64,000 nt of DNA from Candidatus Reidiella endopervernicosa (GTDB lineage: Bacteria; Pseudomonadota; Gammaproteobacteria; GCF-013343005), in assembly GCF_013343005.1 (NCBI RefSeq), contig NZ_CP054491.1, positions 1,054,001-1,118,000 of the forward strand, in the 5' to 3' direction. The position numbers were made by a program, and so were the translations under genes. Of this stretch, positions 2,251 through 19,734 are shown piece by piece (within the stretch, counting starts at the first letter, position 1; every line of letters starts with the position of its first letter). The notes under the pieces were generated by a model. That model did not search any database, was not told the origin of the DNA, and saw nothing but the letters and a program-made list of their open reading frames with translations.

Positions 2251-2435
2251 GCACCTCCCACCAATGCCGTTGTGGACACTTGCCCTTGAACCAGAAGGTT
2301 CAGGTGGGGACGGCTGTGAGCGTTCAGGCTCTCCGCACGTAACGGATATGCACAACGCACCCGACAGTAGTATCCCCGGGCATATAAATAGGCTCAAGAG
2401 ATCTTAGGTCCACTCACGAACACAGCAGGAGGTGC
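2251..2435 (-). ncRNA. ssrS: 6S RNA
   Basis: On the minus strand a 185-base segment begins GCACCTCC and ends GGAGGTGC, a perfect closing stem. Inside, CCTGAACC...GGTTCAAGG matches the conserved arm of 6S RNA (in E. coli, CCTTGAACCAAGGGTTCAAGG). The purine-rich GGAGAGCCT... and flanking regions can form the large central bubble that mimics an open promoter. 6S RNA binds and sequesters the sigma-70 holoenzyme in slow growth. Its position between zapA and the cyclo-ligase gene is the classic one. The exact ends are set by the stem and could differ by a few bases. Confidence 0.93.
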
Positions 2436-12409: not shown

Positions 12410-12653
12410 CTCGCGTTCGGGTGAGGCTCTCTCCCGTGCGATTCTCTATTTCCATCGCCGTTTCTGGCGAGAATTTAATCAATCGCTCTGTCCCTCAAGG
12501 CCAAATTCTTTGATTTGAGGAAACCTCGACACGGTCACAGATTTGCACATGCTCCCTTGATTTGTTATCTATATGGGAAAATAATCCCAATTAGGCGGCT
12601 AGGTAGGCGCTCACATTGGCAGGCAATAAATCGCAATACCAGGGGGAAGGGAT

Positions 12654-14099
12654 ATGAAACCACGTAATGCAGCGCTTAGCGCAGCCGTAATGACGGCACT
12701 ACTCGGATTGACCGCCTGCGGTGGCGGCAGCTCATCGGGAACCGCAGCCAGTGGTGGGGCTACCACCACGGTGTCGGGTGTGATTACCGGCTTTGGTAGC
12801 GTCTACGTGAATGGCGTGCGCTATCCCACTACAGGATCCACTATCACTATGGATGATGCTCCGGTGGGTGATGACACCGCGCTGGCTCAGGGCATGGTGG
12901 TCACGCTTGAGGTCAATGAGAGCGGTGAGGCGGAGAGCATCGAGTATGACGATGAGCTGGAAGGGCTGGTTCAGGCCAATAATGTGGCGGCAAGTGGCAC
13001 GCTGACAGTGATGGGTATGACGGTCAATATCACCGACTCCCGTCTGGTCTATGATGCCAACGACTCCGGCTTCGCGACACTTGAGGATATCCCTGGTGAT
13101 TCGACCGTCTCGGTGGAGGTGAGTGGTTACTCCGATGGTAGCGGTGTGATCTATGCAACCCGCGTGGAGGTGAAGGATGACGATTGGAATATCGGTGATA
13201 GTGAGCTCGAGATCAAAGGCATTATCACCTCACTCGATGCTGGTGCCACAACCTTCTCCATCGGTACTCAGGTGGTGAATTACGCCACTGCCACACTGCC
13301 CTCGACAACCTTGGCTGACGGCCTCTATGTCGAGGTGAAGAGCGAAGATGGCTTTAACGGCAGCAGTGAGCTAATCGCCAGTGAGATCGAGATTGAAGAT
13401 GATGGTGATATGGATTTTGACGGTGAAGATGGTGATGAGGTAGAGATTCGCGGTGTCATCACCGAGGGTACCAATGAGGGTGATCCAGAGCAGTTCCGGG
13501 TTAACGGTCAGTTGGTAGAGATCAGTGGTGCGACCGTGTTTGAAGACGGTTTTACCTTTGCCGATCTGGTCGCCGGTGTCACTGTTGAGGTCGAGGGCGA
13601 GCTCAATGCCGATGGCATGTTGCTCGCAGCAGAGGTGGGTCTCGAAGAGGAAGATGAGGATGGTGAGACCGAGATCAAGGGCGTTGTTGAAGCGGTCGAT
13701 GCAGGGGCGGGTTCGGCGATCATGGTGATGGATATCACGGTGCTGGTGGAGAGTAATACCGTGTTTGTCGATGAGCGCGACGAAGAGCACCTCTTCAATC
13801 TGGATATGATCGTCAGCGAACTTGAAGGCACGGGCGATATGGTCGAGATGGATCTCTACTGGAACGCGAGTGAGGAGATTTTTGTCGCTACCAAGATCGA
13901 ACGTGTCGAGGATGATGGTGAGTCCGAGGTGGAGGGTGAGGTTACGGCGGTCGATGCGCCCTATATCGTGGTGGCCGGTATCACGGTCGACATCTCGGGT
14001 GTGGGTGGGTTCTCACCTATCGTAGGTGACCTTGTTGAGGTCGAAGGTAGTTACGATGCCGGCGTATTGACCGCAACCGAAGGTGAGATTGACGACTAA
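12654..14099 (+). CDS. Lipoprotein with repeated DUF5666-like domains
   Basis: 481 residues. A signal peptide with a lipobox (GLTAC, Cys about residue 22) is followed by a glycine/serine linker. The body is a tandem of 60-75-residue beta-rich units, each with a hydrophobic strand such as VSGVITGFGSVYVNGVRY, a V-x-V-E/V-E-G strand and an acidic segment; this is the DUF5666 pattern. It is very acidic (many D and E). It is predicted to be anchored in the outer membrane facing the periplasm; its function is unknown. A shorter relative lies at 15.0 kb, with a DUF6502-like gene between. The 244 bases upstream are AT-richer than the genes and hold no ORF. Confidence 0.82.
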   Translation: MKPRNAALSAAVMTALLGLTACGGGSSSGTAASGGATTTVSGVITGFGSVYVNGVRYPTTGSTITMDDAPVGDDTALAQGMVVTLEVNESGEAESIEYDDELEGLVQANNVAASGTLTVMGMTVNITDSRLVYDANDSGFATLEDIPGDSTVSVEVSGYSDGSGVIYATRVEVKDDDWNIGDSELEIKGIITSLDAGATTFSIGTQVVNYATATLPSTTLADGLYVEVKSEDGFNGSSELIASEIEIEDDGDMDFDGEDGDEVEIRGVITEGTNEGDPEQFRVNGQLVEISGATVFEDGFTFADLVAGVTVEVEGELNADGMLLAAEVGLEEEDEDGETEIKGVVEAVDAGAGSAIMVMDITVLVESNTVFVDERDEEHLFNLDMIVSELEGTGDMVEMDLYWNASEEIFVATKIERVEDDGESEVEGEVTAVDAPYIVVAGITVDISGVGGFSPIVGDLVEVEGSYDAGVLTATEGEIDD

Positions 14100-14118
14100 A
14101 TTCTCCTTGCGGAAGAGT

Positions 14119-14150
14119 CAGGGCGTGGTCAGAAGTGATCGCGCCCTGTT
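14119..14150 (+). terminator. Probable terminator after the DUF5666 lipoprotein gene
   Basis: CAGGGCG and CGCCCTG pair, with the inner GGTCA/TGATC arm closing on a GAAG loop, followed by TTCTATTG. The stem is strong but the T-run is poor, so termination may be partial. Confidence 0.55.
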
Positions 14151-14186
14151 CTATTGTGTGGCGTTGATATGGGATAGAATGCCCAA

Positions 14187-15008
14187 ATGAGCGTTGATCT
14201 TCACAAGGCGTTAACGGCGGCAGTTCTCAGGCTGTTACGCCCGCTGGTGCGTATTCTGCTACGCAACGGTATCTCCTACGGCGAGTTCACCGATCTATCC
14301 AAGCAGGTCTATATCGACGTGGCGGAGAGGGACTTCGTCCTGCCGGGTAAAAAACAGACCGTTTCTCGCATATCAATACTGACTGGGTTGTCGCGCAAGG
14401 AGGTTGCACGTATTCAGAAGCTCGACGCCCCGAGTGACCATCTGGCGAAACATAAACATAACCGGGCCGCGCGCGTTATCAGTGGCTGGATGACCGATGA
14501 GCGTTTCTCCAGCGAGGAGGAGCCAAGAGTGCTCGACTTCGAAGGCGGACAGGCGAGTTTCAGCGAACTGGTAAAACAGTATAGTGGCGACATGCCGGTG
14601 CGTTCGGTCTTCGATGAGATGGAGCGTGTCGGGGCGGTGGCGCGTGATGGTGAGGGACGTGTACATCTCAAGGTGCGCGCCTATACACCGCACGGTGATG
14701 AGGCGGGCAAACTCTTTATTCTCGGTAGCGATGCGGCCGATCTGGTAACAACCATCGATCACAATCTGCAAAATAGCGGTGGCGAGCTGCGCTTCCAACG
14801 CAAGGTCGCCTACGACAACCTGCCACGCGATGTGATTCCAAAACTACGCAAGTTGGGTGACAAGCGAGCTCAGAATCTGCTGGAAAGTGTGAACCGCTTC
14901 CTGGTAGCCCACGATCGCGACATGAATAGTGAGGCGGAGGGAGAGGGGCGTATGCGTGCTGGTTACGCCATCTACTACTTCGAAGAGGATCTTTCCGAAG
15001 AGGAATAG
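14187..15008 (+). CDS. DUF6502 family protein with a predicted helix-turn-helix
   Basis: 273 residues, soluble, no signal peptide. The N-terminal region LLRPLVRILLRNGISYGEF is followed by YIDVAERDF and a likely helix-turn-helix in VSRISILTGLSRKEVARIQ (about residues 57-75). Later parts (VLDFEGGQASFSELVKQYSGDMP) match the DUF6502 group, which is often found next to DUF5666 lipoprotein genes. A DNA-binding regulator of the neighbouring lipoproteins is my inference. The stop is two bases before the next ATG, so it is co-transcribed with the second lipoprotein. Confidence 0.75.
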   Translation: MSVDLHKALTAAVLRLLRPLVRILLRNGISYGEFTDLSKQVYIDVAERDFVLPGKKQTVSRISILTGLSRKEVARIQKLDAPSDHLAKHKHNRAARVISGWMTDERFSSEEEPRVLDFEGGQASFSELVKQYSGDMPVRSVFDEMERVGAVARDGEGRVHLKVRAYTPHGDEAGKLFILGSDAADLVTTIDHNLQNSGGELRFQRKVAYDNLPRDVIPKLRKLGDKRAQNLLESVNRFLVAHDRDMNSEAEGEGRMRAGYAIYYFEEDLSEEE

Positions 15009-15010
15009 TA

Positions 15011-16017
15011 ATGATGGCTATACGACATATCTCATATCTGCTCGCGATCGCACTGGTGACGGTGCTGAGCGCGTGCAATTCCGGCGGCTCGACCAACGTC
15101 GCCGAAGGTGGTATCGGTGGTACCGGCATCACCACCTCAGGGCAGATCACGGCATTTGGATCGATCTGGGTGAATGGTATCGAGTTTGAAACCGATTCGG
15201 CCTCAATCTTCGTCGAAGGGACAGAGGAGTTTGGAGATGATCAGGATCATCTCGATGAGTGCATGGTCGTAACGGTCGTCGGAACGGTTAATGCCGATGG
15301 TGTCAGCGGCACCGCCGATGTCGTCAGATTTGCTGATGAGATGGAGGGGACGGTTGATGCCAATAATGTGGCGGCCAGCAATACTCTGACGGTAATGTCA
15401 CAGACGGTAACAGTCACTGCCTCAACCTGTTTTGAAGATGATAGCGGTGCTTCCATCGCATCACTTGCCGATATACCGGTCAATGCCGTGGTAGAGGTCA
15501 GTGGATTCTCCGATGGGCAGGGCAACATTGTCGCGACTCGGGTTGAGGTTAAAGCGGGTGCCTGGACAGGTGAGGAGCTTGAGTTGAAAGGTGTCGTAGA
15601 CAATCTCAATACAGGTGCTGAGACTTTTGAGATTGGCGCACTGATCATCGACTACAGCAGTGCGGATCTGAGTGAGCTGGGAGCGACGCCGCTCACCAAT
15701 GGTCTCTATGTCGAGGTCGAGAGCGAATCAGCAATTGTTGGTGGTGTGATGGATGCAGATGAGGTTGAGCTCGAGGATGAGGATGGTGAGTGGGGCCATG
15801 ACGGTGATGATGGCGAAGAGTATGAACTCGAAGGTGTCATCAACACCATCATCAACTCTGAGCAGATCGAGGTGAATGGTCAGCTGGTCGATATCAGTGA
15901 GTCGCCAGACTATGAGGGGGCGATATCAGTGATCTGTTTGCCGGAGCGGTTGTGACGATTGAAGGTACGTTTGATGCCTTCGGTTTCCTAGTGGCCAGCG
16001 AGATTGAGTTCCACTAG
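15011..16017 (+). pseudogene. Second DUF5666-like lipoprotein gene, with a frameshift near its 3' end
   Basis: The signal peptide ends in a lipobox (VLSAC, Cys about residue 21), followed by a region like the 12.65 kb paralogue (ITTSGQITAFGSIWVNGIEF; DANNVAASNTLTVM matches QANNVAASGTLTVM). The reading frame as given stops at 15955. One base later in phase, from about 15930, the sequence continues DLFAGAVVTIEGTFDAFGF and ends at TAG 16015-16017, closely matching the DLVAGVTVEVEGEL unit of the paralogue. So a single base appears lost near 15925-15932. It could be a real mutation or a consensus error; if corrected the product is about 335 residues. Confidence 0.75.
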
Positions 16018-17157: not shown

Positions 17158-19734
17158 TCAGCTGTGAGCAATGGTACCGATGGTGGTTACCATCTCCGGT
17201 GATGGTTTGCCGATGTGATAACCCTGCGCATAGGTAATGCCCGCTTTGCGTACCTCATCCAGCACTTCGGCATCCTCGACAAATTCAGCAATTGAGTAGA
17301 GGTTGAGGTCCCCCGCCAGTGCAGAGATTGAGTGGACCAGCGCCAGGTCGCGAGGATCATTTAACATGTTGGCAACGAAGTCTCCTTCGATCTTCACAAA
17401 GTCGATCGGGAAACGCTTCAGATAGTGGAAGCTGGAGAAGCCGGAGCCGAAGTCGTCGATTGCCAGCTGGTAGCCATCGCTCTTCAGCTCGTTAACGAAT
17501 TTCTCCAGCAGGCTCATGTTTTTCACCGTGTCGCGTTCGGTGATCTCGAAGACGATACGATCATGCTCAATGTTGTACTTTTCGGTCAGACGACGAATCT
17601 CGGGGATAAAGTCGCTCAGTACCAGCGCGCGTGGCGAGAGGTTAATAAACAGCTTGCCGCCGTAGCCACTCTCCTGCAGTTTGGCGAACGCCTTCTCGAT
17701 CACGATGATGTCGAGCATATGGATCACACCCATGCGCTCAGCGATCTCGATGAACTCGAAGGCACCCATGATTGTCTCGTCTTCGAGCTGGATACGGCTT
17801 AGCACCTCAAAGGCATCGACACGATCTTCCTGTACGTTATAGATCGGCTGGAAGAAGGGGATGATGCGTTTCTGCTGAATCGCATCGTTGATGATCTGGC
17901 TCTTCTCGCCAATCTTTTTAAAGACCTCCACCACATCCTGATCGGTAGGAACACCGATGCGGTTTTTGCCCTCGGTCTTCGCCTTGTACATCATGTTATC
18001 AGCGAACATGAAGAGATCTTTCCCTTCGGTAGCGTGGGCTGGGTAGGTGGCCAGACCAATGGAAACGGTCGCCTTGGCCGCGCTGCCATCGGGGGCCTCG
18101 AGGGTGAGACGGTTGGCGTTCTGCAAGATGCGTTCGCACACGGGTAGGGCGTGCTCCTGATCACTTTCAGGTAGCAATACGACAAACTCATCACCACCGT
18201 AACGCGCCAGCACGTCACCGTTTCGCATCGCATCGTCAATGGCGGAGGCAAACTCCTGCAGGAAGCGATCGCCAAAGCTGTGGCCGTAACTGTCGTTGAC
18301 CGACTTGAAGTTGTCGAGGTCGATGACTAACAGGCTGAAGGCGTAGTCGTGGCGCTCGGCGCGATTGATCTCATAGCCGAGCAGCTCCCAGAAGATGCGC
18401 TGGTTATAGAGATCGGTGAGCGGGTCACGGGTGGCGTAGTATTCAAGGTCCTTGGTGTATTTGTAGATTGCCTTAACCGAACCCACCACGTTGAGCAGGG
18501 TGGAGAGAATGCTCTCCATTACCAGTATTCGTACCTCATCATCGCCCAGTCCCGACTGCACACCGATACCGACGATGCCGCCGATCTTGGGGGTGTCGAC
18601 AAATAGTGATTTGGTCTGCAGCTCGATCTGGTCGTTGTCGAGTTCAATGATCTCACCAGCAGGATCGGAGATGTTGTGGTTAATCACCAGGCTGGGGAAT
18701 GAGGAGAAGCTGGGGTGGTTTTCCAGCGCCTTCTTCACCGCGCGTTCCATTGAGTCGCGGGTCCGTTCTGAGGGGGGTGAGATCCAGAATATCTCCAGAT
18801 CGAACAGCTCATCATCGACCTTGAAGATGGAGAAGAGGGTGTAGGCATCGATGACGCGATTGATCTCACCAAGCATGGTGCTGACATACTCGCGCCAGTC
18901 ACGCACTACATCGGAGGTGATGACAAACTTCTCCAGCAGTCGGATCTCAAACTCAAGCAGCTCCTTGTCGACGGCGACCGATTTTAGCTTGGTACCGAGC
19001 ATTGCGACTTTATGGAAGATGTTGTTGAGTTCAGTGAAACCGAGATCGACCTCGTTGAGATCGATGTTCTTCAGGTCCGAGACGCGGTTGACCTGATCGA
19101 TATTGGTATCGAGGATGGCCAGTGAGCGGTTGATCCGCTTGTTGAGCATAAAGGCGACCAGCAGCGCCATGATGAAGGGAATGGGGGCGATCAGCGCCAG
19201 TGGTGCCAGCAGCTGGCTCTCGGCCTTTGAGAGCAGTGGTGTCAGATCCTGACGAACCTCAATCACGCCGAGAATATTGCCCGTCTTGGCATTGGTGTGG
19301 CACTGCAGACATTCATCCTTGGCCGTCAGTGGGTAGCTGTATCGGATGGAGGTGTCACTGACGATGGAGACCGCCTGCCCGCTGCTAAAGGTCTCGTTAA
19401 TCATCGTGTCGCCCGGTTGGCTTCCGATGGAGCCAAACAGATGGTTGACCAGTTCGCCGCGATAGATGGTGGTGGTGTGGCTGGTTTTGCTCGAGGTCTG
19501 CTCAAGAGAGGCGATGAACTCCTCCAGCTGCGCTCGCGACCAGCCCTGACGCATGATCTGGTACATCGCATTGAAGGTGTTGCGCGCCAGTGACTCGGAG
19601 CTGGAGATGGCGTTATCGCGAACGGCACTGCTATAGGCGTGGCTGGTGGTGAAATAGAGCCCGACCAGCAGAATCAGCGAGACGAGTAGTGCCGCAGCGA
19701 GGATGAATCCCTTGATGGTCTTTAGTGCTTGCAT
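17158..19734 (-). CDS. Membrane sensor with c-type haem motif, GGDEF and EAL domains
   Basis: 858 residues. One membrane helix at residues 7-28 is followed by a periplasmic domain (about 30-175) with CLQCHT near residue 140, a c-type haem-binding motif of the DUF3365 kind, then a second helix (about 180-198). A linker precedes GGDEF (RYGGDEF about residue 513), intact for diguanylate cyclase activity, and an EAL domain (AFEVLSR about 642, FEITERDT, IDDFGSGFSSF, KIEGDF) with the catalytic acidic residues kept. It probably makes or breaks cyclic-di-GMP in response to a redox or gas signal sensed by haem; which activity dominates is unknown. Confidence 0.88.
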   Translation of the reverse strand: MQALKTIKGFILAAALLVSLILLVGLYFTTSHAYSSAVRDNAISSSESLARNTFNAMYQIMRQGWSRAQLEEFIASLEQTSSKTSHTTTIYRGELVNHLFGSIGSQPGDTMINETFSSGQAVSIVSDTSIRYSYPLTAKDECLQCHTNAKTGNILGVIEVRQDLTPLLSKAESQLLAPLALIAPIPFIMALLVAFMLNKRINRSLAILDTNIDQVNRVSDLKNIDLNEVDLGFTELNNIFHKVAMLGTKLKSVAVDKELLEFEIRLLEKFVITSDVVRDWREYVSTMLGEINRVIDAYTLFSIFKVDDELFDLEIFWISPPSERTRDSMERAVKKALENHPSFSSFPSLVINHNISDPAGEIIELDNDQIELQTKSLFVDTPKIGGIVGIGVQSGLGDDEVRILVMESILSTLLNVVGSVKAIYKYTKDLEYYATRDPLTDLYNQRIFWELLGYEINRAERHDYAFSLLVIDLDNFKSVNDSYGHSFGDRFLQEFASAIDDAMRNGDVLARYGGDEFVVLLPESDQEHALPVCERILQNANRLTLEAPDGSAAKATVSIGLATYPAHATEGKDLFMFADNMMYKAKTEGKNRIGVPTDQDVVEVFKKIGEKSQIINDAIQQKRIIPFFQPIYNVQEDRVDAFEVLSRIQLEDETIMGAFEFIEIAERMGVIHMLDIIVIEKAFAKLQESGYGGKLFINLSPRALVLSDFIPEIRRLTEKYNIEHDRIVFEITERDTVKNMSLLEKFVNELKSDGYQLAIDDFGSGFSSFHYLKRFPIDFVKIEGDFVANMLNDPRDLALVHSISALAGDLNLYSIAEFVEDAEVLDEVRKAGITYAQGYHIGKPSPEMVTTIGTIAHS

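Follow-up and report, generated by a model that had tools for sequence, protein, structure and literature searches.

Comparative evidence for a candidate operator and a tagged lipoprotein partner of the DUF6502 family in Candidatus Reidiella endopervernicosa

What does a DUF6502 protein control when its gene lies between two lipoprotein genes of the DUF5666 family, and what might it respond to? The question is raised by a module on the plus strand of Candidatus Reidiella endopervernicosa, at about positions 12654-16017 of the 64,000-nucleotide stretch analysed here (the window; contig NZ_CP054491.1, positions 1,054,001 to 1,118,000). A sequence-only reading had described it as a lipoprotein-DUF6502-lipoprotein module; its three open reading frames (ORFs) proved to be real and Pfam confirmed their families. 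The first, LpA (12654-14099, 481 aa), matches DUF5666 (PF18914) in six stretches (E 1.9e-40, 137.4 bits against a cut-off of 27), the middle one (14187-15008, 273 aa) matches DUF6502 (PF20112; E 4.5e-85, 285.2 bits, cut-off 27), and LpB (15011-15955, 314 aa) again matches DUF5666, in four stretches (E 2.3e-23, 82.7 bits, cut-off 27). Pfam assigns no function to either family. We consider it probable that DUF6502 is an autoregulating DNA-binding protein of a surface-lipoprotein regulon, with a short tag peptide of LpB as its possible ligand. The pairing of the families, the tag motif, a palindrome and the genes behind that palindrome are the comparative facts, read from sequence, on which this proposal is built.

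Pairing of the families and a shared palindrome

The pairing of DUF6502 with DUF5666 is widespread. In 369 genomes of the class, with overlaps counted by hand from tables, DUF6502 occurs in 99 and DUF5666 in 94; both are present in 83, DUF6502 only in 16, DUF5666 only in 11 and neither in 259. The conserved pairing claimed earlier, which an absence of co-occurrence was to have overturned, is thus borne out by the 83 shared genomes. The genome studied here (one contig, 3,446,950 bases) has a single DUF6502, and all six of its DUF5666 matches fall within this locus.

Neighbourhoods were collected from two samples. The class sample contributed 80 DUF6502 neighbourhoods, of about 139 places found, and an alignment scan of genome contigs contributed 80 loci, the best of 531 relatives, among them Thiodiazotropha, Sedimenticola, Ectothiorhodospiraceae, Nitrospirota, Desulfobacterales, Binatia, SAR324 and others; a scan of the contigs with the single DUF6502 protein as query gave no match. 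Together with the window these make 161 loci, reduced to 154 distinct ones when identical DUF6502 sequences were dropped. A DUF5666 gene follows DUF6502 on the same strand within 2.5 kb in 131 of the 154, and 24 of those 131 loci have an upstream DUF5666 gene as well. The downstream gene is tightly coupled: LpB starts two bases past the DUF6502 stop codon, 48 of the 131 genes overlap that stop by four bases (44 ATGA, 3 GTGA and 1 TTGA), and only six are separated from it by more than 20 bases. No other neighbour is as constant; the next cluster, which includes the GGDEF-like protein of the window, is found at 40 loci in scattered positions.

Two copies of a palindrome with the consensus TTGGGA-(A/T)6-TCCCAA, in which the spacer is A/T-rich, were found in the module. 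The first, TGGGAAAATAATCCCA (12574-12589), is exact and ends 64 nt before the LpA start, where it overlaps the -10-like hexamer of a promoter-like match at 12557-12585, while the second, TGGGATAGAATGCCCA (14170-14185), keeps nine of the ten fixed positions and ends one base before the DUF6502 start codon. Promoter-like matches in the region number two, against 2.6 in shuffles. Because the sites of the window overlap a -10-like hexamer or abut a start codon, we infer that the sign of control would be repression. One-mismatch matches in the whole window are not above chance (four, against a mean of 1.7, with 6 of 100 shuffles reaching four), and the weight therefore lies on the position of the sites and on the relatives.

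Among the relatives, an exact TGGGA-N6-TCCCA dyad lies within about 180 bases upstream of DUF6502 at 56 of 151 loci, the best shuffled dyad of that size reaching 2-3. When sites with at least nine of ten fixed bases were counted over 250 upstream bases (three of the 154 loci, with short or N-containing DNA, were dropped), 96 of 151 loci were found to have one, 81 of them perfect; the same count in shuffles averages 1.6 at nine or more fixed bases and is zero at ten. In the class sample, taken together with the window, 38 of 80 loci have such a site, and among the alignment-scan loci 58 of 71 do. A perfect palindrome also precedes 20 of 24 LpA-type genes (two of the 26 lie at contig ends and were left out), and sites stand before DUF5666 genes that are unlinked to DUF6502 in five genomes (G079, G044, G300, G349 and G290). 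By hand count, 57 of the 369 genomes contain the exact A/T-spacer pattern: 47 of the 99 with DUF6502 and 10 of the 270 without it, against three and 13 respectively for a reversed-pattern control. Two of the ten site-bearing genomes without DUF6502 are incomplete (G047, 88%; G185, 81%) and have their sites at cytochrome genes or a DUF5666 gene; the other sites read in DUF6502-negative genomes are inside ORFs or before genes without a clear link. Two observations weigh against such an operator: 55 of the 151 loci have no upstream site of at least nine fixed bases, and several of the exact sites in genomes with DUF6502 fall within ORFs or precede unrelated genes. A one-mismatch scan of the own genome was uninformative (58 matches, 66 for the reversed pattern), and a literature search for four operator strings found them in no paper. 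Two further exact palindromes of the own genome (C1:455182 and C1:2724528) were set aside, as their spacers are not pure A/T and they lie within or near ORFs. At another place (L329, genome G299) an exact site is followed after about 320 bases by an ORF that has ferredoxin-type cysteines and that we take, from its sequence, to resemble the adenylylsulfate reductase beta subunit.

The predicted structure of DUF6502 fits a DNA-binding role. Its AlphaFold2 model (pLDDT 85, pTM 0.70) has helices at residues 59-66 and 70-77, in agreement with the likely helix-turn-helix noted earlier (residues 59-77; 14361-14417). The predicted element carries conserved basic residues, and helix-turn-helix matches in structural comparison with VIA cover residues 28-82. 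Operator control is well supported by the comparative data, DUF6502 is very likely the protein that binds the palindrome, and the suggestion that the system has its own regulator gains independent support from the conserved palindrome upstream of both the DUF6502 and the lipoprotein genes.

The second exact A/T-spacer site of the own genome (C1:2217206; L283:4207-4222) points beyond the lipoproteins. On one side it is followed by a membrane protein gene without a Pfam match and then by a 21-haem cytochrome c (Cytochrome_C7, MtrC-like), on the other by a divergent Fer4/pyridine-nucleotide oxidoreductase and then a Sel1/ankyrin protein. Exact sites next to relatives of these genes were found in G047 (L339), G185 (L344) and G066 (L330, the oxidoreductase only), and relatives of the cytochrome locus lie within about 9 kb of DUF6502 at L065 and L101, where the best sites between the two are imperfect (nine and eight of ten fixed bases respectively). 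This arrangement suggests a possible joint control. The Fer4 oxidoreductase gene of the own genome is interrupted by about 190 bases (L283:5327-5514); peptides across the interruption resemble by eye an ORF of L284, which suggests an interspersed repeat.

The tag of the coupled lipoprotein

Both LpA and LpB are predicted to be bacterial lipoproteins, with a signal sequence and a lipobox cysteine read by eye (LTAC in LpA, LSAC in LpB). In LpB the predicted lipid-bearing cysteine, C22 (15074-15076), is followed at residues 33-39 (15107-15127) by the motif GGIGGTG, and an alignment of 32 LpB-type proteins has M1, C22, G34, G37, T38, G39, G44, N55 and G165 as its invariant columns. With the pattern G[ILVFMTE]xG[TS]G, and with three of the 154 loci excluded at contig ends, the motif was found in 138 of 151 coupled partners, most often as [GDE]-G-G-I-G-G-T-G-[IV]-[ST], and in none of the 26 upstream DUF5666 proteins, LpA among them. 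DUF5666 was detected in 124 of the 138 and went undetected in 14, two of them doubtful (L105 and L195); where it is undetected the coupled gene still often encodes an exported protein with the same tag, and partners as short as 56-60 aa retain it. By sequence, then, the mark of the DUF6502-coupled gene is this short N-terminal motif and not DUF5666 itself. The 13 partners that the pattern missed count against so general a statement, but two carry the tag on inspection: the L084 partner is a 56-residue lipoprotein that fell under the ORF cut, and at L171 a transposase-like ORF displaces the partner. Of the 1800 other genes in these neighbourhoods, ten show the motif within the first 90 residues, the displaced L171 partner being one of the ten.

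At synonymous positions the codons of the motif vary in much the same way as those of other glycines, so the constraint acts on the protein; the idea that the motif is conserved as a DNA or RNA element within the gene was rejected. The motif was likewise rejected as a general genome feature. A degenerate DNA pattern for GGIGGTG occurs once in the own genome, in LpB, and in 63 of the 369 genomes, DUF6502-negative ones included. The 20 stretches that were read around matches in DUF6502-negative genomes comprise six in what we take, from sequence alone, to be dihydrolipoyl-acyltransferase-like proteins (SLGGIGGTGFTPI), five in other ORFs without a sign of export and nine without a peptide-bearing ORF. 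The 15 read in DUF6502-positive genomes include two exported tandem-tag proteins, L228 and L242, the latter at its genome's DUF6502 locus; the rest are two acyltransferase-like proteins, other ORFs or no ORF. Tandem tags were also seen in partners L106, L109, L110, L111, L113 and L117. The L228 protein (genome G322) is exported-looking and 632 residues long. Its first 150 residues contain seven motif matches, most of them spaced 13 residues apart, after which a DUF5666-like start was recognised by eye; the protein lies away from the only DUF6502 match of G322. In print, the string GGIGGTG turned up in one paper, on antifungal peptides.

A role of the tag other than that of a ligand has to be weighed. 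DUF6502 could be an operator-binding regulator and GGxGG[TS]G a sorting, anchoring or processing signal that some exported factor reads and for which the motif is retained in the coupled cistron; we regard this as unlikely, though it is the strongest of the alternatives. The motif comes 3-20 residues after the nearest preceding cysteine in 131 of 138 partners (10-13 in 82), where lipoprotein sorting signals lie, and that it binds DUF6502 is something we infer. Yet DUF5666 lipoproteins with the same operator at the same loci do without it, five of the 138 motif-bearing partners have no cysteine within the 45 residues before it, and just one of 82 other lipobox-like neighbours matches it.

A structural role is less probable still. 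The motif would then be the N-terminal part of the DUF5666 fold, into whose first unit it runs directly in most partners, and DUF6502 a one-component repressor sensing a small molecule, as the resemblance of its helix-turn-helix to those of TetR, IclR and sigma factors would allow. The motif partners without detected DUF5666 speak against this, as do the LpA proteins, which have the same first unit and no motif. In the lipoprotein model, moreover, residues 23-36 have pLDDT below 50 and block 31-40 averages 49, so that the motif sits in a low-confidence stretch, unlike part of a folded unit. Very improbable, finally, is that another co-inherited regulator binds the palindrome and DUF6502 acts on the lipoprotein, for instance as a chaperone or translation-coupled assembly factor: the tight coupling would also fit a dedicated partner protein, and DNA binding by DUF6502 is a prediction, but its predicted helix-turn-helix with conserved basic residues, the site at its own promoter in most alignment-scan loci of several phyla and the enrichment of exact sites in DUF6502-bearing genomes are all against it.

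A comparison with HetR

The proposal that the tag is a ligand of DUF6502 draws on a known pair. HetR is the heterocyst regulator of cyanobacteria, and PatS, PatX and HetN are the sources of its RG[ST]GR peptide inhibitors. Foldseek placed HetR entries at ranks 1-3 for the DUF6502 model (E 2.3e-3, 4.4e-3 and 0.34). Among the 50 matches listed by VIA, only HetR entries span nearly the whole model (Z 7.0-8.0, rmsd 9.7-11.1; best entry 4j00, Z 8.0, 219 residues aligned over 8-268), and the others cover the helix-turn-helix or winged-helix parts only. The likeness may extend over the predicted full-length fold, with its DNA-binding, flap and hood parts. It may also include a palindromic candidate operator with G/C arms, which is similar and not the same (gggN5ccc for HetR, GGGA-N6-TCCC here), and there is a dedicated exported partner with a G-[ST]-G core motif.

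In published work, gggN5ccc is given as HetR's own DNA site and PatS6 as adding a strand to strand beta3 of the HetR hood and releasing the DNA (PMC4649674), PatX is described as exported by Sec and cut to HRGTGR (PMC12756182), and every cyanobacterium with HetR is said to have PatX as well (PMC7761841). One of the most conserved stretches of DUF6502, FQRKVAYDNLP (residues 203-213; 14793-14825), may be the counterpart of strand beta3 when the two are aligned by eye. At L091, L084, L107 and L112 DUF6502 has for its only partners small exported proteins with the motif, encoded by ORFs of 56-117 residues; their size is comparable with that of PatX, which is given as 56 aa (PMC12756182).

Several results tell against kinship with HetR. 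The rmsd of 10.8 goes with TM-scores of about 0.35, and a VIA Z below 8 (below about 13 for helical models such as that of DUF6502) may mean only a common arrangement. Comparison of the DUF6502 profile with HetR by hhalign, for which the HetR profile held only two sequences that are 90% identical, gave a probability of 0.14%, of 0.25% with a deeper DUF6502 profile and of 0.64% with the hood part alone; one alignment was collinear but not significant (DUF6502 109-243 to HetR 140-284). At least as high a score as that of one HetR sequence was reached by 122 of 227 unrelated proteins and 49 of 100 shuffles. A Pfam search with 68 DUF6502 proteins (E up to 0.2) matched 18 families, with neither HetR_C (PF18460) nor Peptidase_S48 (PF03574) among them; DUF6502 is the only Pfam match of the window protein at E up to 1, and a PF18460 search of 56 genomes gave no match over the cut-off and none at the DUF6502 place. 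The tag shares only the G-[ST]-G core with the RG[ST]GR of PatS and PatX, its flanks being mostly glycine and isoleucine or valine with no flanking arginines. Columns co-varying with the motif are no help, since the top three lie in the hood but the top 25 include 10 hood columns where 9.9 are expected, and we therefore make no claim of hood-motif co-variation.

Identity with HetR by sequence was accordingly rejected, the hhalign, Pfam and decoy results all being negative, and because profile comparison finds nothing we see in HetR an analogue of DUF6502 and only possibly a remote homologue. The two systems also differ in that the DUF6502 partner is usually a multidomain lipoprotein coupled in one operon, unlike PatX, and in that DUF6502 occurs in Gamma- and Deltaproteobacteria, Nitrospirota, SAR324 and others, whereas HetR is cyanobacterial. 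HetR was sought in plasmids and viral contigs and none was found, and a profile search of the PDB with DUF6502 gave two matches, both with E of at least 0.86. In the literature search no paper named DUF6502 and none, judged by titles and abstracts, linked DUF6502 with HetR; DUF5666 is named in four papers, in two of which it is an entry in a gene table.

With the analogy as a guide, the following circuit is proposed. A cytoplasmic DUF6502, presumably a dimer, would bind TTGGGA-(A/T)6-TCCCAA both at the DUF6502 promoter and at DUF5666 genes of the LpA type, whether linked or unlinked, and the multihaem-cytochrome locus of this genome would hold a further candidate site. The gene translated straight after DUF6502 would supply a usually exported and mostly lipidated protein with the GGIxG[TS]G tag just behind its signal sequence. 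The tag, either within the precursor or in a peptide cleaved off after export, would bind the C-terminal hood-like domain of DUF6502 and alter how that protein binds DNA. In this way the supply or the export of lipoprotein would feed back on transcription, as PatS and PatX peptides do to HetR. The stronger form, in which DUF6502 is a remote HetR relative and the tag of the co-translated lipoprotein its peptide ligand, which would place HetR/PatX-type signalling beyond filamentous cyanobacteria, is offered tentatively and with clearly less confidence than the regulon itself.

The lipoproteins, their neighbours and what the module may mean

That LpA and LpB share segments was correct, and the view that one derives from the other stands only in part. 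The NNVAAS.TLTVM segment recurs at 12951-13039 and 15335-15423 (89 nt, 72% identity) and GLYVEV at 13320-13346 and 15701-15727 (89% identity). On a tree from which seven of the 26 upstream proteins were left out, however, the nearest relative of an LpA-like protein is another one in 13 of 19 usable cases, and the LpA/LpB label changes eight times against at least 15 in shuffles; several of the 26 (e.g. L060 and L195) are fragments or doubtful calls. The two types thus appear to be mostly separate old paralogues and not the product of a local duplication.

The structure prediction suggested earlier for the repeat gave a chain of OB-like beta units (pLDDT 81). The unit resembles CusF, PilY2, YobA and an S-layer assembly domain (9fs9) with VIA Z of 7.4-8.7, which is within the uninformative range of the tool; as OB folds are also very common, no shared function is claimed. 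A PDB profile search returned one match (4gnx, E 0.011), which we take to be an OB-fold RPA subunit.

The end of the module at 16017 does not coincide with that of the LpB ORF, whose open frame stops at 15955. Homology carries on in another frame up to the stop at 16015-16017 (15913-16017, plus strand; GGDISDLFAGAVVTIEGTFDAFGFLVASEIEFH, then the stop). Since relatives L130 and L153 read through the same stretch intact, LpB is called frame-broken, in its last DUF5666 unit, in this assembly. The break (15905-16017) sits near a run of G and is either an assembly error or a real mutation.

The module is flanked upstream by a diacylglycerol kinase gene and what are presumably glycine-cleavage genes, and downstream by a PfkB kinase. 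The gap between LpA and DUF6502 contains a terminator-like hairpin (14119-14148, plus strand, 13 pairs, weak T tail); such sites in the region number two, against 2.2 in shuffles. A large sensor-like protein on the minus strand adjoins the module (17158-19734). It bears CLQCH in its N-terminal part, GGDEF and EAL-type domains were recognised in it by eye, and its cluster is the one met, at varied positions, near DUF6502 in 40 of the 154 loci. A 6S RNA gene lies at 2251-2434 (minus strand; Rfam RF00013, 82.1 bits).

For two DUF families this analysis offers a testable function, with a regulator, an operator, likely targets and a candidate peptide ligand. It also connects the surface lipoproteins of the DUF5666 family with genes for multihaem cytochromes, and perhaps with cell-surface electron transfer. 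If the stronger form of the proposal is true, DUF6502 and the tag would make up a widespread feedback circuit, either export-coupled or acting from cell to cell, over surface lipoproteins and, in some bacteria, multihaem cytochromes. Should the ligand step hold, the HetR-PatS/PatX developmental pair would be extended to bacteria without heterocysts, which would hint at the role of such a pair before pattern formation.

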